Part shown: in pieces, positions 2,224 through 19,804 of the stretch
Position numbering within the stretch: position 1 is the stretch's first letter
Layout of the letters: every line of letters starts with the position of its first letter
Source: a virus
Virus record (IMG/VR): IMGVR_UViG_3300010149_000200
Span: 1-22,465 of that record
Direction: 5' to 3' (one strand)
Length of the DNA: 22,465 bases
The notes under the pieces: model-generated
Database searches by the model: none
What the model was told of the DNA's origin: nothing
Seen by the model: only the letters and a program-made list of their open reading frames with translations
Position numbers and translations under genes: made by a program

Positions 2224-3117
2224 TCAAGCACCCCTGTAGACACTATTTGCTAGTGTGTGTACCTCATCCCAAGACATGTTGCTCAAGTCTTGAGTAGATG
2301 GGATTGTAACATTTGTTGATAGGTCAGCCTTTGCGATTGTTGTACCTTCTGTAGTTAGGTTGTCAATTCTTTCGGAAAGGTTTGAAATTGCCTTCATGAC
2401 TTCACTAATTGGTTCACGAGCATCGAATTGAGCCTTTTCTGCTTCGGACTTTGCGATTGCTTGTTCATTAGCGAATCTTGAAGCAAAGTGTCCTTCTAAG
2501 TCACCACGGAATTGTTGTTCCGTAGCCGCCGCTTTGTAGACTTCATAAGCCGCCTCAATATCGGTTGCTGAAACATTTGATGGGTGAATGTAGGATTTTG
2601 AAAGGTCAGCCGGACCCATAGCCCCTGCCGGTTGTTTTCCACCGCTTTGACTTACTGCGTTAATAGCACCGGTTGATGGGCTACCTGCGGTTTGCCCTCG
2701 GCCTCTAACTTGTCCGGCGAAGTAATCTGCACCATCTACTGTATCCGGGTTGTCGAATCCACCAAGTTGTGCTTTCTCAAGAGCATCAAAATGCTCTCTT
2801 GCTGAATGAGTATCTACACCTGCGGATTTTAGAGTATCTTCCATCCAATTTAGGTACTCGGCACTAATGACATCACTGTATTCATTACCTTTCATGTAAT
2901 TCATTTTGTCATCATCTTTCTTTTCTTTCTTTTTCTCTTTCATTTCTTCTTCGGCCTTCATCTTATCATCCTTCTTTTCTTCTTTGTCGTCGGAATCATC
3001 TTTCTTACCCTTGATATGCTCTCGGAGTTGAGGTGGAATTTCACCTTTCTCCATAGCGTCAAGTCTTGCTTCTAGCCTGTTCATTACTGCGTTTAAGTCA
3101 CTGTCTATATCTGTCAT
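2224..3117 (-). CDS. Possible separately initiated scaffold protein (internal in-frame start)
   Basis: The ATG at 3117 begins MTDIDSDLNAVMNRLEARLD exactly where the protease domain ends and the scaffold part begins. A GTGAG sequence (3123-3127) sits five bases upstream, close to the GGTGA sites used by other genes here. Starting there would give a 297-aa scaffold without protease. Lambda uses the same arrangement for C and Nu3, which is known. Use of this start here is inference, because the site is weaker than the main ones. Confidence 0.35.
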   Translation of the reverse strand: MTDIDSDLNAVMNRLEARLDAMEKGEIPPQLREHIKGKKDDSDDKEEKKDDKMKAEEEMKEKKKEKKDDDKMNYMKGNEYSDVISAEYLNWMEDTLKSAGVDTHSAREHFDALEKAQLGGFDNPDTVDGADYFAGQVRGRGQTAGSPSTGAINAVSQSGGKQPAGAMGPADLSKSYIHPSNVSATDIEAAYEVYKAAATEQQFRGDLEGHFASRFANEQAIAKSEAEKAQFDAREPISEVMKAISNLSERIDNLTTEGTTIAKADLSTNVTIPSTQDLSNMSWDEVHTLANSVYRGA

Positions 3118-3636
3118 TTTACTCACATCTTCTTTTAAAATTCTAAATTGTGCTTCCGGGTTAATCCCTTTTTCACAAATTGTAATTTCATGGAGTTCCA
3201 TTTTACTTATTTCTTGGTATTCTCCGTGTTCCCCATCAGCCTTTCTAACACGCTTGAAAGCCTGTCCACCAATGGAGAATCCTTGCAAATTACCTTTGCG
3301 TATTTCTGCGGCTACTTCACGAGCCTTTTCTATGTCGTTTCGTAGTTTACAAACTACAAACATTCCTGTGTCGTCTACTTCGGACTTCCACATTCTTCCG
3401 TTGGAGTCTACATAGTTATCTATAACTTCTCCAACTTGTATATTAGAGTGAGCCAACTGTACATTCCTGTATCTGTCACTCTTCATAAAACCGTCAAATG
3501 CATCTTTTAATGCACCACGAGTAATCAAATCTCCTTGCTTATCAACAAGTTCTACAGATGCATAACCGGCTACAACTAAATCACTACCACTCTTTAGGAC
3601 TTTCAATCCCGAAGATGGTCGCTGTATAGTTAGCAT
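2224..3636 (-). CDS. S78-type prohead maturation protease fused to a scaffold domain
   Basis: With the ATG at 3636 this is 470 aa; an in-frame TTG at 3648 would add four residues. Residues about 15-170 look like an HK97-type prohead protease: VAGYASVELVDKQGD, the catalytic-histidine segment QLAHSN (His63), the serine segment GFSIGG (Ser121) and the closing MELHEITICEKGINPEAQF. After it come a predicted coiled coil (about 177-196), a highly charged Lys/Glu/Asp linker (about 210-245), and a scaffold-like helical part ending in NMSWDEVHTLAN. Fusion of protease and scaffold is known in many HK97-like viruses. The enzyme would remove scaffold and process head proteins during prohead maturation. 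The C-terminal motif is shared with the 112-aa protein at 10079-10417. A TATA-like box lies just upstream. Confidence 0.88.
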   Translation of the reverse strand: MLTIQRPSSGLKVLKSGSDLVVAGYASVELVDKQGDLITRGALKDAFDGFMKSDRYRNVQLAHSNIQVGEVIDNYVDSNGRMWKSEVDDTGMFVVCKLRNDIEKAREVAAEIRKGNLQGFSIGGQAFKRVRKADGEHGEYQEISKMELHEITICEKGINPEAQFRILKEDVSKMTDIDSDLNAVMNRLEARLDAMEKGEIPPQLREHIKGKKDDSDDKEEKKDDKMKAEEEMKEKKKEKKDDDKMNYMKGNEYSDVISAEYLNWMEDTLKSAGVDTHSAREHFDALEKAQLGGFDNPDTVDGADYFAGQVRGRGQTAGSPSTGAINAVSQSGGKQPAGAMGPADLSKSYIHPSNVSATDIEAAYEVYKAAATEQQFRGDLEGHFASRFANEQAIAKSEAEKAQFDAREPISEVMKAISNLSERIDNLTTEGTTIAKADLSTNVTIPSTQDLSNMSWDEVHTLANSVYRGA

Positions 3637-3661
3637 CAATTCACACAACTTACTGTCATCC

Positions 3662-3698: not shown

Positions 3699-6600
3699 TT
3701 AATCTACTTTATTAAAATCGGACAACTGCGAAGTATTACCATTCATTTCTATATGTTTTATGGGTTTTTTCTCTTTTTTATTTTTCTTAGGCTCGATTTC
3801 TTTTTCATCACTTCGTTTTCTACCATCATAGTCCGGCATAGTTTCTTCATTAGCCAAACGAGTTGGACCACTTGGAGACTCTATTGGTGTAGCCATATCT
3901 ATACCCAAACCTTTTGGTCCTGTCCATGTCATTTTTTCTTTAGCGAGTGTATCTAAAGCACGAGATATAATTTCTAGTGCTTTTTTAGTAGTTGGTTTAA
4001 GTAATCTATTTTCATCGTCAGCCTCTAATACACCTGCTGACTGTTTATCTTGCCGTTTACGGCTTGGGGGCTTTTCATCTAGTACATCTGTTTTAACTAA
4101 ATGACCATCAAACATAAGCGGTGCAACGGCACTCCAATACGGATACATACTTTCTGCTAATGTAATAGGATAGTTGGATTTTACCATACCACTCAATGCT
4201 GTAGAAGGATTTTCTAAATACCATAAATTACCATGACTTAAGACATCATATTCTACAGTATCTACATCTTTTAATATAACTTTTAATTTATTATTATCAT
4301 ATTCAATATCATGTGGAACTAAAATAGGAGTTAAAGATTTAGTAAGTATATCTAAAGATTCAGCACTAGCCGCACCTTCACCATCACCTTTACCGGTTAT
4401 TTGTTTCATTTGAACATTAAAGACATTTCTTCCACCACGATTTTTTTTAGTTACCCCTGTAATAGATACTCTAACTACATCTCCTACTTTATATGAATCT
4501 CCTTGATTATGTATTGTTCCTATATCCATATACTCTTGTCCATTTACTTCTACTGCTCTATTACCTAATTTTGACCCATCTAAAATTGGTCCTGCGCCTA
4601 ATCTATATGTATGTGAATTTTTACCTTTGACATCTAACACTATGAAATTGTAATCCTTAGTGTTTCTAAGTAGCATCCATTTAGGATGTCGCCTTTCTCC
4701 TTTCATGTATGTAGATTTACCATCTCTTAGTAAAAGCACTTTATGTTCCTTTTGAAGATTAGATATTGTTTCCTCTAAACCTTCTTCGTCTGTCATTTTA
4801 GTATCATGTGGACCGGGTATAATTATATTTTCATGACTATCAAATTGACTTCTTAATAATTTCATTCTTTCAAACATAGTCATATCACTTACATTGTTAG
4901 CATCATAATTTAGAATATCTATTATGTTTAGTTCATCTTCACCTAAGATACCATCTATAACATAATCTCTTTTATTTAACTTTGAAAGATTTTCTTTAAA
5001 CGATTTTTTCAAACCAACTTTTTTACCATCTTCATCGTATGTAGTAATTGTTTCATCTTCACTTACAATAATTACTCTCTTACCATCATACCATTTACTG
5101 ACTACCCACGAACCGCTAAATCCTTTTAGATAGTGTAAATCACTTATCTCAAAAATGCGATGCATCGGTCTAATAGGAGGTGACCATTTTACATCGTCAT
5201 TTTTCATCAATAGTATATCGGGATTTAATAACGATGTGATATATGTAGAAATTTCACTCATAGCGATAGTTGAAGGCTCATCCGATGGAGATAAATATGT
5301 ATCCATATTCACTCCTTGATGTGCCGAGAGAGTAGTTTGAGGCGGTGGTAAATTAGGTAATACTTGTTGTATGGTTTCCTTTCCAAATAATGTATTCAAT
5401 GCTTCTTCACTCACTCTTGGGTAAAAACCCGGTTGGGTATGTTCACCAACTATTGGTTCTCCTTCTATATTAGTTTCAATACCAAATGAGGGTTCTGCTA
5501 CAAACCCTTCATGAATATCTCCTACACCAAATATATTGTAGATAGATGCGTTAGTAGGATTTACTCTACCTATCTTAGAATGTGTACCTAAACCTGCTCT
5601 AGCAACTGTTTCAGTTGTAGGTGCTTCAAATGCACTTTCTAATATGCCACCTTTTTCATCCATTAATTTTCTCTCATCTAATACAATTAAAGAATCTAAA
5701 TTATTTCTAGTAGTAGCGGTAACTTTCTTAACTCCTTTACCCATGTTTTTTGCACCGTGAGCATCAAATTCTCTAGCATGGAAAAATTCTAATCCACTAT
5801 TTTGCATTGACTGACCAAAATGTTTTGCGTTAAGAATATGATTTAGTGATTGAGATAATCCATGTATAGGATTTGCTTTCCAATTTTCATTTTCTTTTCT
5901 TGCTCTCCTTTGTGCAATAGTTATCGCATTATGTATATTTGAATTATGTAAATCATGATGAAACTTATCATTACTGTTTAAGTCATCATATTCAGCACCC
6001 ATAATATCATCATTAGGAGTATGTAAATGAGATATATCTGCATTTCCTATTTTTGATAATGTACCACTTGTAAGCATATTACCAACTGTTGAAACAAATA
6101 ATGGTTGTTGTCTCAAAGAAGATTCATTAATAATATTAGCAACATGTTCTTTCATAGCGGGAGTTTTTTCTAAGTTTAATTTATTAATTACTTCATCAAC
6201 TGACATGTTACCATCTATTTCTGCACCATTTTCTAGTAAATGATTAGCAATAGCACCATGTTCATTAATTTCTTTTGGTTTTTGACTGACCACATTGTAA
6301 TCTATTCCATAAGTTACAGGAGATAAATCGTGATTATCTGTCGCTAAAATATGCCTTTGTGTGTCAGCCAATAATTTTTGCACATTATGTATAAACTGCA
6401 CAGGGTTACTAGTGTCAAAAGCATCCGGTTGTTGTTCAAGAACTAACGGTATTATGTTATTTTTAGCGTAATCAACAACTGTATCATGGTGAGACTGTAA
6501 CATATCTAAATACTGTTTAGCATTAATTTTCCAATGTGATGTAGGTTTATCTTTTTGTTTTGTAGATAGTTGAACTTGATTTAATTGAACCACAGCATCT

Positions 6601-9269
6601 TGTAAGTCCTCTCTTAAACCCATTACTTGTTCTTGTGACAAATCGGGATTCAGCATCATTTCATTTATTGAATCAATGGTTTCTCTAATTCTATTTTCTT
6701 TTTTAGTAGAAATATTATCTCCACCAAATCTTAGGATAGACTGAATGGCATCAATAGATGTTGTTTTAGGCTGATATTTCTTTTTTCCGCCTTCTAATTT
6801 TCTTTGATGTAGTTTAGATGTTACGCTTTGTAACCTAGACTTAGCCTCGTCTAAACTTATTTTATCATTAATAGCAAAATCATGATTATCCATATAATAA
6901 TCGTGTAACATTTTATAGTTTGAATTATTTTTATCTACAGACAATTTTTCTATAAATTCGTTAATCTTTCTACTGTCTGTCGTATTAAGTATTTTACTAA
7001 CTGCATTTACTAATCTAACTATTGGATAATCGCCTGTTTCTATGGTATCTTTGACATTTTTGTAGGTGGTAGGTTTTGAATCCCAACCTACATAGTCTTT
7101 AAATTCTTGAAGGCCGAGACCTGCTGAAAGTTTTAGGTCACCTGTTAAAAAATCTTTAAGTTTTCCTATGGCTTTTTTTGATGGAGTAAATGGATGACCC
7201 ACTCTATTCAAAAATGTATTATGTAATTGCGCTTTAACTGCTCTTTCGTGTAATCTACTATCACTAGGATGTGTACCATACATAGATATAGACCTAGGCA
7301 TAATAGTAGGATTAGTAGATGTGTGAGGTTCTAAATGTTGATTATGTGGACCTAATTGTTGTTTAAATGCAGGAGAGGCTGTTCTAATGGCATATTCATA
7401 CATCGGATTAATTGCTGATTTATGCTCGGTATAGTTATTTTTTTCACTTCGATTAGAAGATTTACTTGTTCCAAAAGGAGAGAATATATTTTGCAAAGGT
7501 GTTTTTTCGGGAGTATAATCAAATTTATATTTAGTAGTATCAAAAGCACCTATTGGTGGTGCAAATAGTGGACCAAAATGCATTCCTAAAATAGTGTTCT
7601 CTTGGTTTGGCATCCAAAATTGATAATTATTTGGGTCTGTTTGAAACATAATAGAATTGTCTTTGTCATGCGAGATAGAGTGTAAGAATTCAATCCATGT
7701 AGCAGGTGATATATTCATACCCGGTGTATTAGCGTACAAAGAAGAATAAAACTTACCCGGACCGTATGTATATCCATCGGGGTGATTTTCCCAAAAATCT
7801 TGTTTTTCTTCATCGGGATGAGGACCATGTGGTGATTTTAAAAACGCTAAATCATTCACCATTTCTTTTGCTGATTGTTGAACTGTTCCATGACGGCGAG
7901 CATAATCTTGCGCTTTTTCTAATGTTGGTAAATCAATTATTGGTCCATCCATTTTACCGTGTATAGGATGTTTTTCAATCAACTGTTTTGTATTAGGGTC
8001 AAACCCCGCTAAGAAAAGTAAATCCTCCATAGAGAGTCTTTTGTGTTTAGATTTTCTTTGTAAATCTTGATAAGTATAATTATCTTGAGGTTTTGTTTTA
8101 TGAAGTTCAAGTGACGGTAATACTTGTAAAGGTTCTTTACCATCAACAGCGTATTTTTCATTAATTTCACTTAATATATAATCAGCAATAGGGTAGTCTA
8201 AAAAATCATTTTGATTGTGAATTGACTCACCTAAAGCACTTCTAATAAATCTATTTTCACCTTGAGAATAATCATCTTCATTAGATTGATTTCGATAATG
8301 AGCGTTGCGACCAAAATTTTGATTTGACCTAAGCATAAAATTCATTTCGGGTGTTCTTCTAAGTAAATTATTTACTGCTATTCTAGCAGTAGGTATTTTC
8401 TCACCGTTGGGTAATGTAAGTGTTGATTTATTATCTATACCTTCGTGTAACTGTTCTTCAACAGAATCTCTTTCTTCGGGTGTAAACCATTCAAGTCCGT
8501 ACATAAAACCGTCTAAACCTAGTTCTCCTTCTTCACTTGTCCACTCTTTGACTTTATCATCAAAATGGCTGTGGCGTAATTCACTTTCTAACTCCTTGCC
8601 TTTCAAACCTCTACTTTGGAGTTCTGTTTCTAATTCTGCATTTTGTTTCTTCCATCTTCTATAATCTCTTTGATATAAGTGATGTTGATGTTGCGCCGCA
8701 GTTCCCGTTATGTTAATATCTCCAAGAATCGGTATAGTTTTAGAACCTACTTTTATACCGGTAACCAAAGGGCTATTTTTTTCTGTCATGGTTTTGAACC
8801 ACTTTTTTTCCATTTCCATTTCTTGAGTACTTGCACCACCTAGCGCAAACGACCTAAGCACCTCTAACATATTAGGTAAACCTGTTGCATGATTAATTTG
8901 TCTTAGCGGGTGATTCATTTCGTGATATGGAAAGTGAGAATCAGTGTAAGATGACTTAGTATCTGCTCTATAACTAGGAAATATTGAGTGTCCTCTACCT
9001 TCTCTACGAATCATACCATTAGACCAAACATGATTTGTTGGCTCGCCAAAAGTAGGTCTACTTGCTAATAAATAACCTACTCCTTCTTTTTTATCAAATT
9101 TAATTATTGTTTCAGCAGTATCTTTAAGATTTAAAGAAAATAAATCGCTAGGAGATTTTTCTAAAGATTCCCACGCCATAATGTATTCTGCGGCACTTCG
9201 AGATAAATCTAAACCATCGTAAAGAGATATTACAAACTCATTTTTACGAATGTTGAAATCATCTATCAT
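3699..9269 (-). CDS. Giant virion-module protein with a degenerate ATP-dependent DNA-ligase-like domain
   Basis: This is an 1856-aa protein. The ATG at 9269 is preferred because GGCGGTGA lies just upstream; a GTG at 9278 would add three residues. Residues 1 to about 1370 match nothing I recognise. They are rich in Asn, His and Lys, with short helices and no membrane segment. About 1375-1540 resembles the nucleotidyltransferase domain of ATP-dependent DNA ligases: VVSKWYDGKRVII (motif I-like), DYVIDGILG (motif III-like, Asp1439), HKVLLLRDGK (motif IV-like) and PKWMLLR (motif V-like). An OB-fold-like segment follows (about 1540-1620). Key residues are changed: the lysine is three, not two, residues before DG; DGE has become DGI; and EG of motif IV has become HK. 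Catalysis is therefore doubtful. The C-terminus is very Lys-rich. Its place between small head proteins and the protease suggests a structural or internal head role. The gene looks more AT-rich than the capsid gene. Confidence 0.75.
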   Translation of the reverse strand: MIDDFNIRKNEFVISLYDGLDLSRSAAEYIMAWESLEKSPSDLFSLNLKDTAETIIKFDKKEGVGYLLASRPTFGEPTNHVWSNGMIRREGRGHSIFPSYRADTKSSYTDSHFPYHEMNHPLRQINHATGLPNMLEVLRSFALGGASTQEMEMEKKWFKTMTEKNSPLVTGIKVGSKTIPILGDINITGTAAQHQHHLYQRDYRRWKKQNAELETELQSRGLKGKELESELRHSHFDDKVKEWTSEEGELGLDGFMYGLEWFTPEERDSVEEQLHEGIDNKSTLTLPNGEKIPTARIAVNNLLRRTPEMNFMLRSNQNFGRNAHYRNQSNEDDYSQGENRFIRSALGESIHNQNDFLDYPIADYILSEINEKYAVDGKEPLQVLPSLELHKTKPQDNYTYQDLQRKSKHKRLSMEDLLFLAGFDPNTKQLIEKHPIHGKMDGPIIDLPTLEKAQDYARRHGTVQQSAKEMVNDLAFLKSPHGPHPDEEKQDFWENHPDGYTYGPGKFYSSLYANTPGMNISPATWIEFLHSISHDKDNSIMFQTDPNNYQFWMPNQENTILGMHFGPLFAPPIGAFDTTKYKFDYTPEKTPLQNIFSPFGTSKSSNRSEKNNYTEHKSAINPMYEYAIRTASPAFKQQLGPHNQHLEPHTSTNPTIMPRSISMYGTHPSDSRLHERAVKAQLHNTFLNRVGHPFTPSKKAIGKLKDFLTGDLKLSAGLGLQEFKDYVGWDSKPTTYKNVKDTIETGDYPIVRLVNAVSKILNTTDSRKINEFIEKLSVDKNNSNYKMLHDYYMDNHDFAINDKISLDEAKSRLQSVTSKLHQRKLEGGKKKYQPKTTSIDAIQSILRFGGDNISTKKENRIRETIDSINEMMLNPDLSQEQVMGLREDLQDAVVQLNQVQLSTKQKDKPTSHWKINAKQYLDMLQSHHDTVVDYAKNNIIPLVLEQQPDAFDTSNPVQFIHNVQKLLADTQRHILATDNHDLSPVTYGIDYNVVSQKPKEINEHGAIANHLLENGAEIDGNMSVDEVINKLNLEKTPAMKEHVANIINESSLRQQPLFVSTVGNMLTSGTLSKIGNADISHLHTPNDDIMGAEYDDLNSNDKFHHDLHNSNIHNAITIAQRRARKENENWKANPIHGLSQSLNHILNAKHFGQSMQNSGLEFFHAREFDAHGAKNMGKGVKKVTATTRNNLDSLIVLDERKLMDEKGGILESAFEAPTTETVARAGLGTHSKIGRVNPTNASIYNIFGVGDIHEGFVAEPSFGIETNIEGEPIVGEHTQPGFYPRVSEEALNTLFGKETIQQVLPNLPPPQTTLSAHQGVNMDTYLSPSDEPSTIAMSEISTYITSLLNPDILLMKNDDVKWSPPIRPMHRIFEISDLHYLKGFSGSWVVSKWYDGKRVIIVSEDETITTYDEDGKKVGLKKSFKENLSKLNKRDYVIDGILGEDELNIIDILNYDANNVSDMTMFERMKLLRSQFDSHENIIIPGPHDTKMTDEEGLEETISNLQKEHKVLLLRDGKSTYMKGERRHPKWMLLRNTKDYNFIVLDVKGKNSHTYRLGAGPILDGSKLGNRAVEVNGQEYMDIGTIHNQGDSYKVGDVVRVSITGVTKKNRGGRNVFNVQMKQITGKGDGEGAASAESLDILTKSLTPILVPHDIEYDNNKLKVILKDVDTVEYDVLSHGNLWYLENPSTALSGMVKSNYPITLAESMYPYWSAVAPLMFDGHLVKTDVLDEKPPSRKRQDKQSAGVLEADDENRLLKPTTKKALEIISRALDTLAKEKMTWTGPKGLGIDMATPIESPSGPTRLANEETMPDYDGRKRSDEKEIEPKKNKKEKKPIKHIEMNGNTSQLSDFNKVD

Positions 9270-9281
9270 TATTTTCACCGC

Positions 9282-9461: not shown

Positions 9462-10082
9462 TCAATCAAACTTTTCTTCTCTAACGACTCCTGTATCGGA
9501 GTGAGGGTTTTGTCTTGATGATAGTCTTTCCATGTTCACTTTAGAATCCGCTTTTTTTCTCTTTGGTTTAGCATCTTCGGTTTCAATAGTTTTACCATTA
9601 GTAGTAAAGTAACCACTCTTAGTTTGTCCACCGGATTCTGCTACAAAGTGAGGATTAATGTCAGTGATTTTTTCGGGTGGAAATCCCGGTTGCGCTTTAG
9701 CCATTTTTGTTCCACCTAAGCAACTTGCTTTGCACATGTCTGCTTTGAATTTACCATCTTTACAATGAGGACAACCTTTACCTTTCATTTTGTTATCTTT
9801 ACATGTACATTTTTTACCGCCACAGTCGGAACAACCTTCAGCCTTTGTAGCCATACCTGTATCGTCACCTGTACCCGGAAGAGGCATCTCACCGGTTTCA
9901 CGCATACCCTCACGAGGTTTTCTCATACTTTCCATTTTACCTCTTTTTGAAGTTCGAGGTGTACCTGCTGAAAGTGGTAGAGTCATTTCCTTCTGTATTC
10001 TATCTAGCCTGTCATTCATCGCTTTTGCTTTTTCAAGCATAACTGTAGTTTCATAACTCATTTTTTCAAATCTTGGCTTCAT
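9462..10082 (-). CDS. Basic protein with an eight-cysteine metal-binding core, unknown function
   Basis: This is a 206-aa protein. An N-terminal helix, probably a coiled coil (about 8-33), is followed by a basic disordered stretch. Then comes a cysteine-rich core: CSDC (84, 87), CTC (92, 94), CPHC (104, 107) and cysteines at 117 and 121. These could hold two zinc ions or form a DnaJ-like zinc module. The tail (from about 125) is Lys/Arg-rich and hydrophilic. The ATG at 10082 overlaps the previous stop (ATGA). No enzyme motif is visible. From its place between portal and protease it may be a minor head component. DNA binding through the basic tail is a guess. Confidence 0.65.
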   Translation of the reverse strand: MKPRFEKMSYETTVMLEKAKAMNDRLDRIQKEMTLPLSAGTPRTSKRGKMESMRKPREGMRETGEMPLPGTGDDTGMATKAEGCSDCGGKKCTCKDNKMKGKGCPHCKDGKFKADMCKASCLGGTKMAKAQPGFPPEKITDINPHFVAESGGQTKSGYFTTNGKTIETEDAKPKRKKADSKVNMERLSSRQNPHSDTGVVREEKFD

Positions 10083-10417
10083 TGTATCACATCTGTCTTT
10101 TTCGCTTGGTTTGCTAACTCGTGTATTTCATCCCAATCCATATTGTGGAACTCTTCATTAGTTTGTGGAATAGTGGTATTTTGACCCTTTAGAATTGAAT
10201 TATTGTTTAGGTCGTTTCTAAAAGGGTCATCTTGTACATCTTCGGTAAATGGAGTAGTACTTTTTACCATACCCATTTTTCTCAATAATCTTTGAGGGTT
10301 GTTGATAATACTCTTAAGACGCTCATTTTCCTGTTTTAAAATCTCTATGTTAGAATCCATAACTTCCATTTTAGTGATTAAAGCGTTCACTAAAAGTTCG
10401 GATTTATCTTCTGTCAT
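10079..10417 (-). CDS. Small coiled-coil protein with a scaffold-like C-terminus
   Basis: This is a 112-aa protein. Residues about 8-38 form a heptad-type coiled coil (MEVMDSNIEILKQENERLKS). A polar linker follows, then a C-terminal stretch at 82-103 ending NMDWDEIHELAN. This stretch aligns with the C-terminus of the protease-scaffold protein: TIP, one residue, T, four residues, then NMxWDE(V/I)HxLAN, 13 of 21 identical. In HK97-type viruses the scaffold C-terminal helix contacts the capsid protein. This protein may therefore dock on the same partner, for example as an assembly cofactor or portal-vertex initiator. The start has GAGGTCA six bases upstream, and the stop overlaps the next gene (ATGA). 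Confidence 0.65.
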   Translation of the reverse strand: MTEDKSELLVNALITKMEVMDSNIEILKQENERLKSIINNPQRLLRKMGMVKSTTPFTEDVQDDPFRNDLNNNSILKGQNTTIPQTNEEFHNMDWDEIHELANQAKKTDVIQ

Positions 10418-10822: not shown

Positions 10823-12607
10823 TTATGCACCTCTAAATCTTCTAGCATTTTGCATAACATTTGCATTTTGCTGTCCAAGTGATGGTGGTGGTCCTCTTTG
10901 TTGCACACTTGTTACAGGCGCACCACTACCCGGTGAGGTTCTTCTTTCGGGTGCGGCAGGACCACGGTTGCGTATTCCTACACCTTGACCACCCGGTTGT
11001 GGAGGTGGCATTGGCATGTTACCCATTGGCATACCCGGAGGCATACCTCTCATTGGCATACCCGGTGGCATACCCGGTGGCATACCCGGTGGCATACCCG
11101 GTGGCATACCCGGTGGCATTCTTCCTCCACCCGGTGGCATCATTGGTGGTGCGCCGCCCGGAGGTGGTGCGCCTTGTTGTTGTTCTTCGGGTTTAGGTTT
11201 ACGATAAACAAATTTAATGTCGTTACTTGTATCACCACTAATCAATTCCGGTACGAAACCAAGTTGAGCCATTCTTTGTGCTACATTCAACTCTTGCTCA
11301 TCACGGCGTAATCTTGTAATTTCATCTTCTTCTTCGTTTGGATATAGTGTTAATTTCCAATCAAACACTCCCATTTGTTTTAGAATCTTAGGGAATAAAA
11401 CATCAGTGTAAATTTTTTGTCCAAACTCTACTGCACGATTAGTAACAAGAATCTGTAGACCTTCGTTGTTAAGACCGCCGGATTTACCATTATCTACCAT
11501 AAATATACTTGATACGCCAAAATAAGCGGCAATTCTATTTCTTATTTCATCACGAACAGCGATATATTGCATTTCTTCTAGTGTGTCCATGAATTTGACC
11601 CAATTGACACCACCTCTACCGGTGCTAGATTCAATACCAACTTTAGGTACATAGTGAGGGTCTCTTTCCATTTTTTCATCTACTGACTTCCAAAATGATT
11701 TCATTGATTCAAGATTATCGGTTGTGACAGAAATAATACCTTTAGGCATTCTACGCTTTTGATAAGCAGTATACATGTAATTATCCATCGCCGTTAATGT
11801 CATGGCCTGTCGCCACATTGTATTTACGGGAGAACGACCATACAATTTAGATGGATTGTATTTACTTAAATGTAAAACTTCACCTTCAACAAAGTATTGT
11901 GTTTTACCGCTACCTGCCATGTTTACATAATGTACATCGTGTAAATCGCTACCACAAACTTCACACTTATCATCTTCTGCATGTGTTTTTACTTGGTCAC
12001 GATGGATTAGGCAAGTCTTGTAACGACCACCTCTTACCCCTCTTTTATCGGCAACTATTCTCATGAATATAGGGTCACCTCTAATCATTTCTTTTACACG
12101 ATAAAATGCAACCTCTTTTGTTTCCGGGTCAATATAATACTCTTTTACAAATATCATAAATGCATCATCTACAATATTTAGGTCATTTTCAATTTCATGT
12201 AAAACATGTAAGAACTGTTGTTCCATACTATTTTCTTGATTGAGTAACCACTTAGCGTATACTAATTCTTCACTATCCGGTCCTCTAACTTCCCCGCCAC
12301 ATGTATCACATATTTCTACATCGTGTTGGTATTCTTCATCACATTGAACGCATTTTTTATGAAACTTCTTTTCCCAATAATATCCTCTTCTAAACATCTC
12401 TTGTCTTAGTTTAGAAAGTACGGTTCTTAGAATCAAACATTCTGTGCTTACCGCATAAAGAGCAGGTATAGTAATACCCTGTGCCATTACAGGTTCTTGT
12501 ATACCACTTGTCCAAAGTGGCATAGTTGGAGTCGGTGATGATTTACGCTTGAAGGGTTTACTCAATGTCGAGAGAAACCGACTAATTCTACTTTCATCAT
12601 CTGCCAT
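10823..12607 (-). CDS. Portal protein with two zinc-binding insertions and a Pro-Met repeat tail
   Basis: This is a 594-aa protein. The core (about 120-475) reads as a phage portal: a helix-rich N-terminal region, [20 protein letters not shown], the helix pair around [19 protein letters not shown], a Gly-rich turn [14 protein letters not shown] near 380 and a C-terminal strand-helix crown. Portal forms the dodecameric ring at one capsid vertex through which terminase pumps DNA. Unusual are CVQC...CDTC (Cys86, 89, 100, 103) and CLIH...CEVC (Cys199, His202, Cys215, Cys218), each able to bind zinc. The last 115 residues are Pro/Gly/Met-rich, with tandem PPGM units, and surely disordered. The start overlaps the previous stop (TAATG). 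It lies downstream of terminase, as usual, but separated from it by five genes, counting the nested one. Confidence 0.85.
11061..11120 (+). repeat. Five tandem copies of a 12-bp unit in the portal gene
   Basis: The plus strand repeats cccggtggcata five times; the last copy ends in t. On the coding strand each unit gives PPGM in frame. Degenerate copies extend to about 11020 and 11165. The unit length is a multiple of three, so copy-number changes keep the frame. Confidence 0.9.
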
Positions 12608-13905
12608 TACAAACTCTCCGCATAATTACCTATTGTATCTGCATCCACGCCCCATTTACTCAAGAAACTATCGGCTTTTTTCTTATCGTCTTTCCAATTA
12701 TTATATGTAACGACACGATACAATTCATCTTTTCTCATCTTATCTTTTTCATCTACAAAGGATAAAACAGCCTTTGCTTGCAACGATTTCATTTTTAAAT
12801 GTGGTAATATACCTTTCAATAATTGCCTTAAATCGTTTTTTGATGAGAATATGAGTCGGTGTTGGCTTCGGACACTATTTTTGTGTATTCTTTGATTTAG
12901 AACTAATCTACCGCAACCTAACGCTTTGTGTAATTCTTCACACTGCATACGACCTCTATCGCCTGTAGCGATAAATGTCGCTCTCGGTTCACCCCTTTCC
13001 GTTATGAATATGCTACCATCTGCATCAAGAAAACCTGCGGCATAAGCCCATATATCTTTAATAATTAAACCATGAGAATTAAGTTTTACAAAATCACCTC
13101 TACTGTTACTTTTGTAAATATCTAATTCTTCACCGTACATTTTTAGCAACATACCTACCTTTGTAGGAGTAACAGATTTAGATATAGTTCCAACACCTCT
13201 ACGAACTAACTCACGACTACTAAGTGGACCGGATTTTGTTAATTCATCGGAAATAAAATTAAGAGTTGATTTATCTGTTTTTGATATACTATCAATTTGG
13301 TGTAAAGTGTTAGACCACATTTTACGAGCATCTTTTTTCAACTGTAAAGCATTAGCCCATTCTTTTTGGTCATCAATTCCCCAATCTAATTTTTCATTTA
13401 ACAAATTCAATACAGTCATAGATTTAAGATACAATTGACATGCTTTTTGTAAAGAAGATGAACGAGATTCACCAAATTTACGGAGTGCTTTTAGGCTTCT
13501 ATCATTGAGACCAATATTTTTTATTACATCTTCTAAACCTTCACTCCATGAAAGATTACCAATAGTGGCTTCTATTTCTATAGACTTTATTGTACGAATG
13601 TCATCAATAATCGCATCAATACTTTCACGATTATCTTTATCTAATCTTCGCATTTTCCTACACATACGAATTATTGAATTAGCATCTTTACCGTATGTAC
13701 TCTCTAGCCATCCATCACCATTGGGTGCAAAACTATACGATTTAATATCGTCATTAGAAAACAAACTTGATGATTTTTCTATAGGGGCTGTAATAACTGT
13801 AAATTCGGGATGCTGTGATAAATTAGATAAAACACTTTTTGTTAAATCATCAGCAGGTTGTACAGCGAGGTCGTACTCATCACCTAGTAAAGCACTACCC
13901 CACAT
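12607..13905 (-). CDS. Winged-helix plus LAGLIDADG-type protein between terminase and portal
   Basis: With the ATG at 13905 (GGTGG five bases upstream) this is 432 aa; a TTG at 13917 would add four. Residues 1 to about 205 are unrecognised and helical. About 209-276 look like a winged-helix DNA-binding fold (SGPLSSRELVRRGVGTISK then a wing). From about 283 to 385 the sequence follows a single-motif LAGLIDADG domain: AYAAGFLDADGSIFI carries the motif, with Asp296 as the acidic residue; ATGDRGRMQCEELHKALG fits the middle; LLKGILPHLKMKSLQAKAVL fits the usual C-terminal helix. Single-motif members act as dimers that cut or bind DNA. No intein or intron surrounds it: it is an uninterrupted gene joined to portal by a TAATG overlap. 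A free-standing homing enzyme or a domesticated DNA-binding packaging factor are both possible. Confidence 0.75.
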   Translation of the reverse strand: MWGSALLGDEYDLAVQPADDLTKSVLSNLSQHPEFTVITAPIEKSSSLFSNDDIKSYSFAPNGDGWLESTYGKDANSIIRMCRKMRRLDKDNRESIDAIIDDIRTIKSIEIEATIGNLSWSEGLEDVIKNIGLNDRSLKALRKFGESRSSSLQKACQLYLKSMTVLNLLNEKLDWGIDDQKEWANALQLKKDARKMWSNTLHQIDSISKTDKSTLNFISDELTKSGPLSSRELVRRGVGTISKSVTPTKVGMLLKMYGEELDIYKSNSRGDFVKLNSHGLIIKDIWAYAAGFLDADGSIFITERGEPRATFIATGDRGRMQCEELHKALGCGRLVLNQRIHKNSVRSQHRLIFSSKNDLRQLLKGILPHLKMKSLQAKAVLSFVDEKDKMRKDELYRVVTYNNWKDDKKKADSFLSKWGVDADTIGNYAESL

Positions 13906-13923
13906 AATGACCACCAAATTGAC

Positions 13924-14058
13924 CTATTTATTTAATGTATTCCAAGCGTCATCAAATGCTTTTTTCTTGTCATCTTTTGGTTTTTCCATACCTTTAGGTG
14001 GTTTACCACCAATAGCGATGACCATTACAACGCCTTTCTTTTTCTTCTTATCATCCAT
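13924..14058 (-). CDS. Nested 44-aa protein from an internal in-frame start
   Basis: Within the 233-aa frame, the ATG at 14058 is preceded, five bases away, by AAGGAGATGA (14064-14073). This is the same ten-base site used by the capsid and decoration genes. The product would start MDDKKKKKGVVMVIAIGGKP and end DDAWNTLNK: a short hydrophobic strand between Lys-rich ends and a C-terminal motif also found in the 826-aa protein. It is either a real nested gene or the trace of two genes fused by loss of a stop codon. The site is too good to be readily explained by chance in a coding stretch, but expression is not shown. Confidence 0.5.
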   Translation of the reverse strand: MDDKKKKKGVVMVIAIGGKPPKGMEKPKDDKKKAFDDAWNTLNK

Positions 14059-14625
14059 TTTATTCATCTCCTTTGTTTTCTTTTTTTGTTGCTCTATGAA
14101 TCTACGGTATATACCTGCTTCTTGTTTTTTACCCATTTCTCTTGCTCTTTGTTCCATAGCGATAGCCGCTTGAGTTTTGTGAGCATGAGTTTTGCTACTG
14201 TTTTTGATTTTACTAACTGATTGTCTTGCTTTTTGTGGATTTTTAAATCCTAAATTATGTATAGTTCCTTTTGGGTTTTCATCAGTATACAAATCGGAAT
14301 GCTTCTTTGAACCCGCAGGTTGCCCTTTTTTACGAGGTATGCGTGGTGCTTTTACAATTGTAGGCTTACCACCGACTCCTTGTTTCTTACTACGCTTTCT
14401 TTTGGTAGCGGCTTGTTTTTGCCCTTCGGACATTGAGCCGGAAGTCTTTGGAGTTTTACTTGATACTTTCACACTTGGTCTACACTTTGGATAACCTTTG
14501 CTTGAAGTCTTGGCTTTTGACCTGCCACACGGTGGGTGTTTACCATCCTTATTTTTACGACTTACATCAACCCACTTTTCTTTGAACCATCGGTTCAAGT
14601 TCTTGCGGATTAATACTTTGGTCAT
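13924..14625 (-). CDS. Lys-rich basic protein resembling small DUF5872-like viral proteins
   Basis: This is a 233-aa protein. It begins MTKVLIRKNLNRWFKEKWVD, followed by DGKHPPCGRSKA and GYPKCRPS. This pattern resembles short basic proteins found in many marine phages and large algal viruses (DUF5872-like, from memory). The middle (about 55-105) is a Lys/Arg/Gly/Pro-rich linker. Residues 120-185 (IHNLGFKNPQKARQ, then AAIAMEQRAREMGKKQEAGI) are a second helical module. From residue 190 a separate-looking short unit begins with its own ribosome site. The charge suggests DNA binding or condensation, but this is inference. AAGGTGA lies four to five bases before the ATG. The C-terminus DDAWNTLNK matches a motif in the 826-aa protein. 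Confidence 0.65.
   Translation of the reverse strand: MTKVLIRKNLNRWFKEKWVDVSRKNKDGKHPPCGRSKAKTSSKGYPKCRPSVKVSSKTPKTSGSMSEGQKQAATKRKRSKKQGVGGKPTIVKAPRIPRKKGQPAGSKKHSDLYTDENPKGTIHNLGFKNPQKARQSVSKIKNSSKTHAHKTQAAIAMEQRAREMGKKQEAGIYRRFIEQQKKKTKEMNKMDDKKKKKGVVMVIAIGGKPPKGMEKPKDDKKKAFDDAWNTLNK
14064..14073 (-). promoter_or_regulatory. Internal strong Shine-Dalgarno site
   Basis: AAGGAGATGA on the minus strand, inside the 233-aa gene, five bases before the in-frame ATG at 14058. Sequence and spacing equal those of the major capsid gene. Confidence 0.6.
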
Positions 14626-14791: not shown

Positions 14792-14973
14792 TTTTTCTTC
14801 CCCTTTTTCTTAAATTTTCCACGACAATATTGAACAGCCCATCCATTAGCATAGGCTGACGGATAGACCTTGAACTTACGCTTTGCCGCCGCTTTACCTG
14901 CGGGGCATAGTTTCTTTTCTAAAAAGTCAAACGCACTATCCATTCCAATACAATGTCCACATTCACAACTCAC
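14788..14973 (-). CDS. Small basic protein with YPSAYANGW motif, GTG start
   Basis: This is a 61-aa protein. The GTG at 14973 is chosen because GGTGAT lies three bases upstream and it overlaps the terminase stop as GTGA; a TTG at 14985 is also in frame. It starts MSCECGHCIGMDSAFDFLEK and continues with CPAGKAAAKRKFKVYPSAYA and a Lys-rich end. The R-x-F-x-V-YPSAYAN-x-x-A pattern is, from memory, a recurrent small motif in marine phages and some large eukaryotic viruses, of unknown function. The CECGHC start may bind metal. It directly follows terminase, so a packaging- or head-associated DNA-binding role is possible but unproven. Confidence 0.65.
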   Translation of the reverse strand: MSCECGHCIGMDSAFDFLEKKLCPAGKAAAKRKFKVYPSAYANGWAVQYCRGKFKKKGKKK

Positions 14974-16457
14974 GGTATCACCCAATCATTTTTTCCATAA
15001 TTTCTGTGTGGTTTTCCTTTTATCCACTCATCAAAGCCCGGTAGTACATCGTCAAGAAGCACCACTGAACCTTTGAATTCTTTTGTTCCCCAATTAGCCA
15101 AAGCCAATGCCATAGCCAAGTCATCGTGAGTTCCTACAGATTCTAGTTTGCCATTCTTTTGCATACCGAATCTGTTTAACTCGGATTCTAACTTGTGGGT
15201 AAATTCACGGCTTCGCTCATCACCGTATGGAGTTTTTATCTGTCCTTGCTCAAACGCCATAAGAAGTGACATAAACATACTTTCTTTTCTTTGGCGTGTT
15301 GTCATAAAAGTGCGAATAGGAATATCCCCTCTCATGTCTTGAAGTTCAGCCGCAAACATACGCTGAAAGTTGTTACCTTCAAGTTCAATCAAATCGGGTT
15401 GAAACCTGTTATTTAACAGTAAAATTTGTTTTTTCTGTGCCGCACCACCAAGACCTTTTTCGTGTACAATACCAACTATTTCTTTGATATTATCACCCGG
15501 TGGTGTCCTTAGTACTAACATAGCAGTAAAGTCAGCGTTCTTATCCGAAGCGATAGCAGTATCCCATCCGATAAAGTGCTGTCCAAATACCCCTGCCGGA
15601 TTTCCCTCTTCATCGAATTCAGTATCAGCCCTGTCAAGAAGCACCAACTCTCTATCACGAGCCGCCTCAAGTATAGTAGCAGGGAACATACTCGCTACAT
15701 CGTGGATAGGTTCACACAGATACTCACGGCTAAATTGTATAGCGGGCATTGATAATCGCCTTTGTTCAAGTGCCTCAAGATTCCATCTTTCCGGCCAAAG
15801 GGCTATACCTTCCGCATTGATAGCGGGATATGTTTCTACTTGGAATGTTTCTTTTTCTTCAAGTTCAGCATACAAGTCATTGTAACTGAATGGTGTACCG
15901 ACCATCATTAGTCGTGCTGTGTGGTGGAGTACCGGGAGTAATACACCATAGAACCAATCGGCGGCTCTTTGTAACTCTCCACCTGTAGTACCCCACAAGA
16001 TGTCATCACATACTACTACATCGGGGTGGAAACCACGAGTAGCACCACCAACCGACTTAGCCATGATACGGCTACCGTTAGTGAACTCAAAGTATGATTT
16101 AGCCCAAGGTCTACCTTGGTCGGGCTTCAAACCTCTTAGAATATCAGCACTTTCTATGTTATTACGAATAAACCTCATGTGTTCAAGTGTCTGTTCTAAT
16201 GAGTGTGAGAAAATCATGATGTGAGTACCGGGGTTGAAAGCGGCTATCCATAGAGCATACGACATAAACAAAGTGGATTTACCGTGGTCACGACTCGCTT
16301 TAACACAGTAGTAACGATTTTCTTTCAATCCTTTATCCCACATCTCATGATGATGACTGTAATGAAAACCAAGTATATCTGTAAAAAAGAACTTAAATGA
16401 CTTTTCAGCCATCTTTCTATCCATATCTAGGATAAACTGTTCCATGTTTTCACTCAT
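14970..16457 (-). CDS. terL: Terminase large subunit (ATPase-nuclease DNA packaging motor)
   Basis: This is a 495-aa protein. It drives DNA into the prohead through the portal and cuts genome ends. The ATPase part shows Walker A KASRDHGKST (53-62), Walker B VVVCDD (147-152) with Asp in place of the usual second Glu, and a coupling motif MMVGTP (184-189). The nuclease part shows Asp299 in FIGWDTA, an acidic pair in LIELEGNNF (358, 360) and THDDLAMA (Asp445, Asp446), the RNase-H-like triad. Length is normal. The ATG has GAGATGAT three bases upstream. The next gene overlaps its stop (GTGA). No inserted intein or intron is seen. Confidence 0.95.
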   Translation of the reverse strand: MSENMEQFILDMDRKMAEKSFKFFFTDILGFHYSHHHEMWDKGLKENRYYCVKASRDHGKSTLFMSYALWIAAFNPGTHIMIFSHSLEQTLEHMRFIRNNIESADILRGLKPDQGRPWAKSYFEFTNGSRIMAKSVGGATRGFHPDVVVCDDILWGTTGGELQRAADWFYGVLLPVLHHTARLMMVGTPFSYNDLYAELEEKETFQVETYPAINAEGIALWPERWNLEALEQRRLSMPAIQFSREYLCEPIHDVASMFPATILEAARDRELVLLDRADTEFDEEGNPAGVFGQHFIGWDTAIASDKNADFTAMLVLRTPPGDNIKEIVGIVHEKGLGGAAQKKQILLLNNRFQPDLIELEGNNFQRMFAAELQDMRGDIPIRTFMTTRQRKESMFMSLLMAFEQGQIKTPYGDERSREFTHKLESELNRFGMQKNGKLESVGTHDDLAMALALANWGTKEFKGSVVLLDDVLPGFDEWIKGKPHRNYGKNDWVIP

Positions 16458-16461
16458 AGTA

Positions 16462-17616
16462 TCATCTCAATTTTAGTAAAGTATATGCGGCAAATGTTCC
16501 CATTTCATGGGGTGTCATCTTGTAAACTACATCAGCACCTAACTTTTCAGTAAGTGCAGTAACGAATGATTTGTTAGCATTTGGGTTAAAGAAATCGGGG
16601 GCTACCCCTCCTTGTTGTTCTTGTAGTAGTTTTTGTTGTGCTAACAAATTTTGCGGTACTGATGAATGTGTAGAAGAAGATTGTGTAACAGGTTGTGGTG
16701 TGACAGGTTGTTGCACAGGTGCGGCAGGTTGTTGCACAGGTGCGGCAGGTTGTTGCATAGGTTGTGTTTGATGCCCCATCAAAGCCGCATTATGGTCTGC
16801 TAATGTTTTTGTTTGTTGTTGTTGTTGTAATGCTTGTAATGGGGGTGATGGGTTGTTGTTCATTATCCCACCGGGTGGTGTTGCTGTACTGTGCATTGGG
16901 CCGGTTACATTAGAAACAGCCTCGATTGGAACTTGAACAGGTGCTTGAGTAACCGGCCTTTTGGGTGTAAATGGAGGCTGACCATACATCAATAAATTAT
17001 TAGCCTGTTGCTGACTCATACCTTTACCTGCCTCTAACATTTGAGCATAAGGTGTATTATCGTAATTCATAGGTTTTATCGAAGGTTGATTACGAGGGTC
17101 ATCTTGAGAAATAAGTTCTCCTTTGGGATGAGAAGTTGATGGTGGTAGTCTTACAGGTGGCCCTACCGGTCCTCTTGCTATATCTTTTAACGCCGCACCG
17201 GTATCAAATTTTGCCGGTGGTGTTCTATCTAATTTTGGAGGTTTAAATGTCAAATCGGAGTTGGCATAATCACTAATCATTCTTCCTGTTGGGTCAAGTC
17301 TTTCATAAGAATAACCTATACCTAATGGTGCAGATATATTACCACCTTGCATAGCATTCATAGTTTCATTTACAGCCCCAAGACCTGCAATTGCTTTACC
17401 TCCCATACCTGCAAGTGCGGCTATTTTTGATGTTGGTTTAACACCAACTTTGCTTTCTGTTCGTATTGGTTTTCTAAGAATATTAAAGAAATCCATAAAA
17501 GATTTACCCCTATCCGGTGTTTGAAATAATCCTTGGTCGTTTGGAAGTTGTTGGTCTACCTTCTTTTTAATTAACACACTTTTAGGTGCGGATTTTTTAA
17601 CAAGAATTTTAGTCAT
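16462..17616 (-). CDS. Disordered Pro/Gln-rich protein, unknown function
   Basis: This is a 384-aa protein. The N-terminus MTKILVKKSAPKSVLIKKK is basic and resembles that of the 233-aa protein. A Gly/Ala-rich helix (about 65-90, AALAGMGGKAIAGLGAV) could be amphipathic or membrane-touching. The rest to about 335 is Pro/Gln/Asn-rich and probably disordered, with a PAAPVQQ repeat near 290-305. A short folded C-terminus (about 345-384, VTALTEKLGADVVYKMTPHE) follows. It lies four bases before terminase in the same transcript, and its own start overlaps no gene. No family is recognised. The style resembles internal or scaffold-like virion proteins. Confidence 0.55.
   Translation of the reverse strand: MTKILVKKSAPKSVLIKKKVDQQLPNDQGLFQTPDRGKSFMDFFNILRKPIRTESKVGVKPTSKIAALAGMGGKAIAGLGAVNETMNAMQGGNISAPLGIGYSYERLDPTGRMISDYANSDLTFKPPKLDRTPPAKFDTGAALKDIARGPVGPPVRLPPSTSHPKGELISQDDPRNQPSIKPMNYDNTPYAQMLEAGKGMSQQQANNLLMYGQPPFTPKRPVTQAPVQVPIEAVSNVTGPMHSTATPPGGIMNNNPSPPLQALQQQQQTKTLADHNAALMGHQTQPMQQPAAPVQQPAAPVQQPVTPQPVTQSSSTHSSVPQNLLAQQKLLQEQQGGVAPDFFNPNANKSFVTALTEKLGADVVYKMTPHEMGTFAAYTLLKLR
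16704..16761 (+). repeat. Tandem 21-bp repeat (2.8 copies) in the 384-aa gene
   Basis: A 21-base unit starting caggttgttgcacaggtgcgg occurs at 16704-16724 and 16725-16745, with a partial copy to 16761. It encodes PAAPVQQ units in frame. Confidence 0.85.
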
Positions 17617-17620
17617 ATTA

Positions 17621-19804
17621 TCACTTCATATTTAATTTAATTACTTTTACGACTTTAGGTTGCACATGATACGCTTTCGCTATCTTGTGCCAATCACCCA
17701 TTGATTCATTTATAGAATTAACCTCACCACTTGTAAGACCTACATGTTTGGCTATTTGGTTTACATCAGCAAAAACCGCACCATGACTGATACTCGCATC
17801 TAAACTCGCTTCGTGAAATTGCATTCTTTCCAAAGCCTTCAATGTTCTATCCATAATTGGTAAATGTGAATCTTCGGATTTCATATATTGAGTAAGAAGA
17901 GTTTGTCGTGGGTCAGCGATTGCTCTTTGCTGTGCTTGTTCAAATTCAGTTAGTTCTTCCCCTCCGGGTCTAAGACCTAATGATTCTCTAAACTGTGCAG
18001 GGTTTAATGACGCTACATTCGGTCTAAATGCTTGATATTCCGGTGGTAGAGGTAATCGCCGCACAGCAACCGCCGGACTTGGGAGTGGGGGTGTTCCGCC
18101 GGGTTGAGAAACCGGAAGAGGTCGAGAAACCGGGATAGACATGCCTGTGTCACCGGCGGAACTAGGAAGTGCATCTACTGATGCGGGAGGTGCGGATTGA
18201 GGTGGAATGGGCATACCTTCACTCGGCGCATAATCACTCATATCATGGAAATATGGTGACATGTGTTCTTCCATACCCATACTAGCACCCTCTTCGGGGT
18301 ATCCAAAAATATCAAGATTTTGCATTGGTTCAGTTGGTATATCACCAATTCCCATTTTTACATTATGACCTCTAGCACTTGCTTGATGGTCGGCTAAGGC
18401 TTCGATTATCCCACGATACCTGTCTACTTGACCTAGTGCAGTTTCATTGTGATGTTTAATTCCTAATGTTTCTAATTCTTCGGATGTTATTTGATGGTCG
18501 CCAAATTTACTTCTACTCTCATTTTCTCCAACACCCGATTTACGAGCAAGAGCCATGATTTTACCGGCAGTAGTATGTAACCCTTTACCACCTTTTTCTC
18601 CCGGTTGAAGAAATCTCATGTGGTCCTCATGTGATATACCATCTTCTCCGGTACCATAATTTTCCATCATAAGATTGTATAGATTTTTAAAATCTCCTTG
18701 AAAACTTCTACCAAACAAATACATCATAGCGGGTGCATGTGCTAAATCTTTGATTAATGCCTCACGCATATCCGGTGTTTGTAAGACTTCTCTTAATGGT
18801 CTTTGAACCATATCGGGTTGAGTTAGTTTACCGGATTGATTGTAAGTAACATTAATATCCGGTATATGTTCTATACCTTTATCCATGATTTGGTCTATCA
18901 TAGCGTGTGCAGATTGATACAAACCGGTAGGAATTTTACCGCCTTTCTTTCCATGTTGATTTAATTTAGGATAAAAGAAAATATCGGGTAAGTGGTGTAA
19001 GGTTTCCCATGTGTGTACATCTTGCGTATCTCCAAAGTAATCTGCCGGTGCGCCACCCATCATTTGTGAAGTTACTTGGCCGGGATGTTCTCTATGATTA
19101 CTTCTAACATAAGCACGAACATTTCCGTTTTCATCCATAACATTAGGAACGGTGAAGTGTGCGTACATATATGGATATTTCACAAATGGCATTTGCTTCC
19201 ATTCTTGTTGTTCTACACCATGTTCATCTTCTAATACATGTTGTAATTGTTGATGAAAAGGTATTGAGTAAGATTCCATAAACCTACCAAACGGAGTATC
19301 TTCTTCATTTTTATTTGTGTAAGTAGTAATTAAAGTGTTATTATGAGTTCGAGTTGGTCTTGTGGCTGATTCTCTATCTCCATCGCCCGGTGGTAACATA
19401 CCGGCTCTTAGTTTCCTCCAAGCCAAATTATCAAACATAGGTAATTGATGACCCTTATCTGTATGAGTAGCATTGAATTGCTTTATTGCTTGATTAATCA
19501 CATCTACCGGACTTCTGTTAATATTGTTTCTTCGTAAGAAATCTCCTAAATGGCTTGCTAAAGCATCTATACCGTGTTGAAAAGAGCCAAGTTCTGTATT
19601 GTAAATTTGCTCTCCATGCTCTCCATTTGCCCATTCACCTACCAAAGATTTTCCTCTACCATCATGAGCAAACAAAGGTAAATCCATATTTTGTGGTGGT
19701 TTGAAATGTTGTGCCGGTGGGTTACGAAACATTGTTGGTCCTTGTGGAGTATAACCTATCATACTCCATGCTTTTTGAAGTAAAAAAGGTTTTATTCCTA
19801 TCAA
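17621..19804 (-). CDS. Large protein of unknown function, probably TTG start
   Basis: This is a 727-aa protein. The TTG at 19804 overlaps the previous stop as TTGA, but the ribosome site is weak. The first in-frame ATG is at 19762, with GGAG immediately before it. Regions: an N-terminal part with HDGRGKSLVG (48-55); a long helical middle without recognised motifs; a Pro/Ser-rich linker (about 530-590); and a C-terminal helical part (about 670-727) with two helix-turn-helix-like stretches (IAKHVGLTSGEVNSIN and IAKAYHVQPKVVKVIK). Methionine, His and Gln are frequent. No membrane segment is seen. It lies upstream of terminase, where many viruses carry early packaging or internal proteins. Its role is unknown. 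Confidence 0.55.
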   Translation of the reverse strand: MIGIKPFLLQKAWSMIGYTPQGPTMFRNPPAQHFKPPQNMDLPLFAHDGRGKSLVGEWANGEHGEQIYNTELGSFQHGIDALASHLGDFLRRNNINRSPVDVINQAIKQFNATHTDKGHQLPMFDNLAWRKLRAGMLPPGDGDRESATRPTRTHNNTLITTYTNKNEEDTPFGRFMESYSIPFHQQLQHVLEDEHGVEQQEWKQMPFVKYPYMYAHFTVPNVMDENGNVRAYVRSNHREHPGQVTSQMMGGAPADYFGDTQDVHTWETLHHLPDIFFYPKLNQHGKKGGKIPTGLYQSAHAMIDQIMDKGIEHIPDINVTYNQSGKLTQPDMVQRPLREVLQTPDMREALIKDLAHAPAMMYLFGRSFQGDFKNLYNLMMENYGTGEDGISHEDHMRFLQPGEKGGKGLHTTAGKIMALARKSGVGENESRSKFGDHQITSEELETLGIKHHNETALGQVDRYRGIIEALADHQASARGHNVKMGIGDIPTEPMQNLDIFGYPEEGASMGMEEHMSPYFHDMSDYAPSEGMPIPPQSAPPASVDALPSSAGDTGMSIPVSRPLPVSQPGGTPPLPSPAVAVRRLPLPPEYQAFRPNVASLNPAQFRESLGLRPGGEELTEFEQAQQRAIADPRQTLLTQYMKSEDSHLPIMDRTLKALERMQFHEASLDASISHGAVFADVNQIAKHVGLTSGEVNSINESMGDWHKIAKAYHVQPKVVKVIKLNMK

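Follow-up and report, generated by a model that had tools for sequence, protein, structure and literature searches.

What does a segment resembling an ATP-dependent DNA ligase do inside a giant protein encoded among the head genes of a virus, and could it still be an enzyme? An earlier note on this DNA, made from the letters alone, had proposed a catalytically degenerate ligase-like domain within a giant head-block protein. The analysis bears this reading out, and it points to a fold that was kept after its chemistry was given up.

The giant protein in its genomic setting

The window, i.e. the whole stretch of 22,465 bases analysed here (virus record IMGVR_UViG_3300010149_000200), carries a head-and-packaging block on its minus strand; neither RNA families nor tRNAs were detected in it. 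The block includes the terminase large subunit (14970-16457), the portal protein (10823-12607; phrog_18178, 1.8e-67; 28-29% to Druskaviridae portals), the giant protein (3699-9278), the prohead (head maturation) protease (2224-3648; Pfam Peptidase_S78, 2.3e-10; phrog_23555, 9e-16) and a major capsid protein of the HK97 fold (1006-2199; phrog_24667, 1.9e-58; SU10_MCP, 3.7e-8), the latter 33-35% identical to the major capsid proteins of HVTV-1 and HCTV-1. Counted from its GTG start, the giant open frame encodes 1859 aa rather than the 1856 aa claimed before. It lies, as the earlier note had it, within the head genes, between those for the portal and for the protease and capsid; three small proteins are encoded between portal and giant gene, and the protease gene starts 50 bases downstream of the latter. 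It is this position that suggests a role of the giant protein in the head.

The arrangement recurs in relatives, where the order is portal - p123 - p112 - p206 - giant - protease - MCP. At least 321 stretches in IMG/VR hold relatives. Homologues longer than 1700 aa were found at 94 loci, the open frame measures roughly 1800-2000 aa throughout the family, and the giant gene adjoins the protease gene in at least 172 of 208 loci, the remainder being partly explained by fragments and reversed loci. In GTDB contigs, covering about 85,000 prokaryote genomes, two scans returned no relative; the domain and the giant protein also had no match among 50,697 annotated phage records.

Several other features of the window deserve mention in their own right. 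The motif MxWDExHxLA/MA occurs C-terminally both in the prohead protease (2224-3648, minus strand) and in an unrelated protein of 112 aa (10079-10417, minus strand). Among relatives, 115 of 137 proteases and 92 of 98 p112 proteins have it; 318 ORFs carry it near their C-terminus, of which 317 belong to one of these two kinds. It may represent a shared capsid- or portal-binding tail, in which case p112 would be a scaffold or cargo protein. A 436-aa protein (12607-13917, minus strand) whose C-terminal part is HNH/LAGLIDADG-like (phrog_5046, 9.4e-8) is encoded directly upstream of the portal in most relatives; the matching slot of HVTV-1 is taken by an HNH endonuclease, and the 436-aa protein is possibly a domesticated homing endonuclease. 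Besides, an 826-aa protein (19801-22281, minus strand) contains EPMxDxWSxLLK three times, at residues 136, 306 and 522, and the C-terminal end of a 233-aa protein (13924-14625), AFDDAWNTLNK, resembles this repeat.

A complete ligase core toward the C-terminus

The ligase-like core, consisting of a nucleotidyltransferase fold and an OB fold, spans residues 1340-1640 (4359-5261, minus strand) and thus encloses the segment at 4380-5160 to which the resemblance had originally been assigned. Judged from the single sequence, the resemblance would be weak: PF01068 (DNA_ligase_A_M) matched the whole protein with E=0.017, below the curated cut-off, and a 323-aa piece with E=3.7e-4, while phmmer retrieved the archaeal ligase 4eq5 at 1.3e-4. 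At the level of the family, PF01068 matched 25/25 members of the first alignment (best 1.8e-7), NCBIfam models of ATP-dependent DNA ligases matched up to 66 of the 67 members of a wider one (best 3.1e-9), and the family profile found the archaeal ligases 4eq5 (4.6e-7) and 3rr5 (8.3e-5) among PDB sequences.

Structure prediction, which the earlier note had suggested along with profile searches, led to the same fold. A first AF2 model, built from 25 sequences similar to each other, reached a pLDDT of only 58.6; the model from 67 sequences, which is ligand-free, attained a pLDDT of 81 and a pTM of 0.72. Its OB-fold part (residues 1542-1630; 4389-4655, minus strand) forms a beta barrel, with a block pLDDT of mostly 76-92, and is spanned by the Foldseek alignment. 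When this model was compared with the PDB using Foldseek, the best 50 matches were all DNA ligases, archaeal or human (E 1.4e-13 to 8e-9). Archaeal ligases came out on top (E about 1e-13), with a TM (query) of up to 0.61 at 5.2 A; in several other alignments the rmsd was large, which a different placement of the two domains relative to each other would account for. The 25/25 PF01068 matches, the family profile's hits in the PDB and the Foldseek matches together rule out a chance resemblance. The domain is homologous to DNA ligases and has a genuine ligase fold with a complete core. An N-terminal domain of the PF04675 type was not found, a full-length hmmscan at E<=1 returning PF01068 and a weak Aca2 match only. 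In a library of viral structures, the fold was matched best by A0A516LT18, a protein of 827 aa (E 1e-22; 308 aligned columns with 26% identity), a shorter protein that may hold a distant relative of the domain.

Catalytic residues are lost family-wide

Residues were counted over 114 distinct sequences, which fall into 30 clusters at 85%. SKWYDGKR (residues 1394-1401; 5076-5099, minus strand), the counterpart of motif I, aligns to 4eq5 with SKWYDG over EIKYDG, so that Trp occupies the column of the catalytic, AMP-accepting Lys and a Lys stands one position earlier, just as had been read from the letters. In none of the 114 sequences does this column hold Lys (W in 75, L in 14, Y in 13, F in 12). 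Two positions before it, Glu has given way to Ser in 113/114, and the Arg following motif I to Glu in 95/114; the motif I Arg is present in all 114. Homologues with a canonical KxDG were looked for as well, and KxDGxR is absent throughout the domain in every sequence.

The motif III equivalent DGI (residues 1442-1444; 4947-4955, minus strand) has Ile in place of Glu, in agreement with the earlier reading of DGI for DGE. Glu occurs here in 0/114 sequences and I/V in 109, the column as a whole being I/V/T/A/L. The clearest similarity to ligases in the alignment to 4eq5 and 3rr5 is the motif IIIa region, NIIDILNYD (residues 1451-1459; 4902-4928, minus strand), whose Asp is invariant (114/114), as is ER. 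The motif IV equivalent, HKVLLLR (residues 1512-1518; 4725-4745, minus strand), lies over HEGLMAK of archaeal ligases, with Glu in 18/114 and Gly in none. The loss of motif IV had been recognised correctly, but with a slip of one residue: HKV over HEG puts KV, not HK, on the EG pair. The earlier note overlooked that motif V has lost its lysines as well: WMLLR (residues 1534-1538; 4665-4679, minus strand) replaces WLKIK and LLR thus stands over KIK; the first Lys is found in 0/114 sequences (L/V/M/I instead) and the second is always Arg. The most strictly conserved stretch, STYMKGERRHPKW (residues 1522-1534; 4677-4715, minus strand), is the counterpart of ligase SxYxxGxRxxxW in the alignment to 4eq5, and its S, Y, R and W are each present in 114/114. 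Fixed in the family are SxY, the Arg and Trp of GE.RHPKW, and Y[RQ]LGAGP.

On these alignments, the domain lacks the residues needed to adenylate, and it is presumably inactive. Most positions of the ATP pocket are replaced, too. The earlier suggestion of a pseudo-ligase kept for nucleotide binding therefore holds for the pseudo-ligase and is weakened for the nucleotide; the invariant Arg of motif I and the Arg that replaces the second Lys of motif V could still bind a phosphate. The note's other suggestion, binding of DNA ends, may hold. Separately, KxDGxR strings were encountered in four ORFs elsewhere in three large contigs, all by eye unlike ligases. An ORF of 854 aa in contig L108 (minus-strand coordinates 15399-17960) carries the string KYDGTR and looks helicase-like by eye; a bare motif I string is no evidence of a ligase.

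Probably not a variant enzyme, and not a relic

Might the displaced Lys at residue 1395 take over as the nucleophile of an active, non-canonical ligase or nucleotidyltransferase? The earlier note had considered such a variant and had proposed to see whether the shift is conserved in homologues. The Lys of SKWYDG is present in 77/114 sequences and, on a tree computed with IQ-TREE, characterises a single large clade (33 of 34 rows, with one loss inside), which is what speaks for this idea. Conservation is restricted to that clade: a second, well-supported one of 18 rows has A/S/G/I/L/M/H at the position and keeps the same domain. Because the Lys is missing from a whole clade, it is not a general substitute nucleophile, and shifted-lysine catalysis as a general mechanism is ruled out. 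Moreover, no sequence has kept the Glu of motif III or either Lys of motif V, and a shift by one residue on a beta strand would turn the side chain away from the pocket. We thus regard an active enzyme of this kind as very unlikely.

The eroded motifs would equally fit a decaying remnant, or an assembly artefact, of a functional ligase gene. Around 320 relatives with open frames of 1800-2000 aa argue against this, and so does the pattern of selection. Column conservation per 50-residue block is 0.59-0.78 in the ligase core vs 0.18-0.60 over residues 1-1350, so that no other part of the giant protein is as conserved as the core; dN/dS against near relatives is 0.06-0.09 in the domain and 0.08-0.25 in the N-terminal part. 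Purifying selection and conservation above the rest of the protein rule out decay, to which we assign next to no probability, and indicate that the domain is maintained as a pseudo-enzyme.

The published magrovirus ligase

Magroviruses (order Magrovirales) are defined here as tailed viruses of marine archaea with genomes of 90-110 kb, a PolB, a chaperonin, and a capsid and portal related to those of Druskaviridae. The window itself holds a structural block only. In large contigs of relatives (up to 107 kb), PolB was found in 12/20 and Cpn60 in 11/12, and together with contig size and the Druskaviridae-like capsid and portal these relatives make the viruses look like magroviruses. The latter are viruses of Poseidoniales (PMC12999244, PMC10768690, PMC5332604), are reported among the most abundant marine viruses (PMC10160649), and have been described as encoding an 'ATP-dependent DNA ligase' (PMC7318539, PMC10160649, PMC10768690, PMC12999244). 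Two ICTV profiles list this ligase among the replication genes, and it has served as an argument for near host-independent replication by an almost self-sufficient replisome (PMC10768690, PMC12999244).

In 42 contigs of 33-107 kb, which may be incomplete, the sole match to PF01068 was the giant protein; an NAD+-dependent ligase was not detected in 12 contigs, nor a member of the RNA_ligase family in 14. In the Group A magrovirus contig_156409, the ligase as annotated and the prohead protease are neighbours within a 678-base read (PMC7318539), and the giant gene likewise adjoins the protease. Given this neighbourhood and the single PF01068 match, the published ligase is very probably the pseudo-ligase domain, at least in these clades. 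The literature treats it as a replication gene, whereas the domain described here is catalytically degraded and belongs to a head-block protein. Should the two be the same, these viruses would have to rely on the host for the ligase step, and the annotation would need correcting. It also follows that the earlier statement that no head protein of this kind had been described stands in part: the gene has probably been listed before as the magrovirus 'ATP-dependent DNA ligase' and is not wholly unseen, while the lost catalytic residues are not remarked upon in the literature examined.

A binding module in the virus particle?

We consider it likely that the giant head-block protein contains a maintained, non-catalytic pseudo-ligase core kept for binding, most likely of viral dsDNA. 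Along these lines, a magrovirus-type virus of marine archaea would have captured a whole ATP-dependent DNA-ligase core, nucleotidyltransferase and OB fold included, without a recognisable N-terminal DNA-binding domain, and a fusion would have made the core part of a giant protein encoded in the head-morphogenesis block. To judge from its residues, it would neither form a lysyl-AMP intermediate nor seal nicks. The fold would have been retained for a remaining binding function, with viral dsDNA, or DNA plus portal or capsid, as the most likely partner, and the giant protein would be a minor head protein or an ejected one, located at the portal or capsid interior.

The fold might also serve protein-protein contacts with portal, protease or capsid only, making the giant protein purely structural or scaffolding with no contact to DNA. 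Consistent with this, the gene adjoins those for protease and capsid, and the conserved RPMHRIF, STYMKGExRHPKW and YxLGAGP are no catalytic motifs of ligases; against it, the whole nucleotidyltransferase and OB architecture is retained, which in true ligases is a DNA-encircling design. We hold this possibility to be doubtful. Somewhat less likely still is a giant protein carried in the virion and ejected to act in the host after DNA entry, where the pseudo-ligase would bind ends or nicks of the incoming DNA or disturb the repair machinery of the host. Proteins with effector-like domains in the portal-protease slot of the Druskaviridae HVTV-1 and HCTV-1 keep this reading alive, and genome-size contigs with PolB and chaperonin and no other ligase fit it too, but the giant protein shows no sequence homology to these slot proteins.

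Carrying the preferred reading, a retained DNA-binding core, one step further, we tentatively propose that the ligase core has turned into a non-catalytic DNA clamp in the particle, which might sit at the portal and hold the packaged genome by its end or nicks, or might be ejected together with it; magroviruses would then be without a working ligase of a recognised family and would need the host's. This would show clearly how the core of a DNA-repair enzyme can be put to new, non-catalytic use within a protein of virus morphogenesis, with a pseudo-ligase conserved across hundreds of viruses.

Comparison with known systems

Among annotated phages, capsid and portal are closest to those of the haloarchaeal Druskaviridae HVTV-1, HCTV-1 and HCTV-5, which have homologous capsid and portal proteins, the order terminase-portal-...-protease-capsid, and likewise a large protein in the slot between portal and protease. 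Their slot proteins differ in carrying MuF-like, zeta-toxin kinase and, in HVTV-1, ADP-ribosyltransferase domains and no ligase fold. Homology between the giant protein and the same-slot proteins of HVTV-1 and HCTV-1 was not detectable, and nothing is therefore transferable from them.

A further comparison is with the ATP-dependent DNA ligases of archaea (Thermococcus sibiricus 4eq5, T. gammatolerans 6wbo, Pyrococcus furiosus 2cfm, Archaeoglobus fulgidus 3gde). Unlike these enzymes, the domain has its catalytic residues in motifs I, III, IV and V replaced, is without a detected PF04675-type N-terminal domain, and sits inside a head-module protein of 1859 aa. Common to both are the nucleotidyltransferase and OB fold, the order of the motif regions, the RPM element preceding motif I, DIL..D, ER.K, and the SxYxxGxRxxxW signature.
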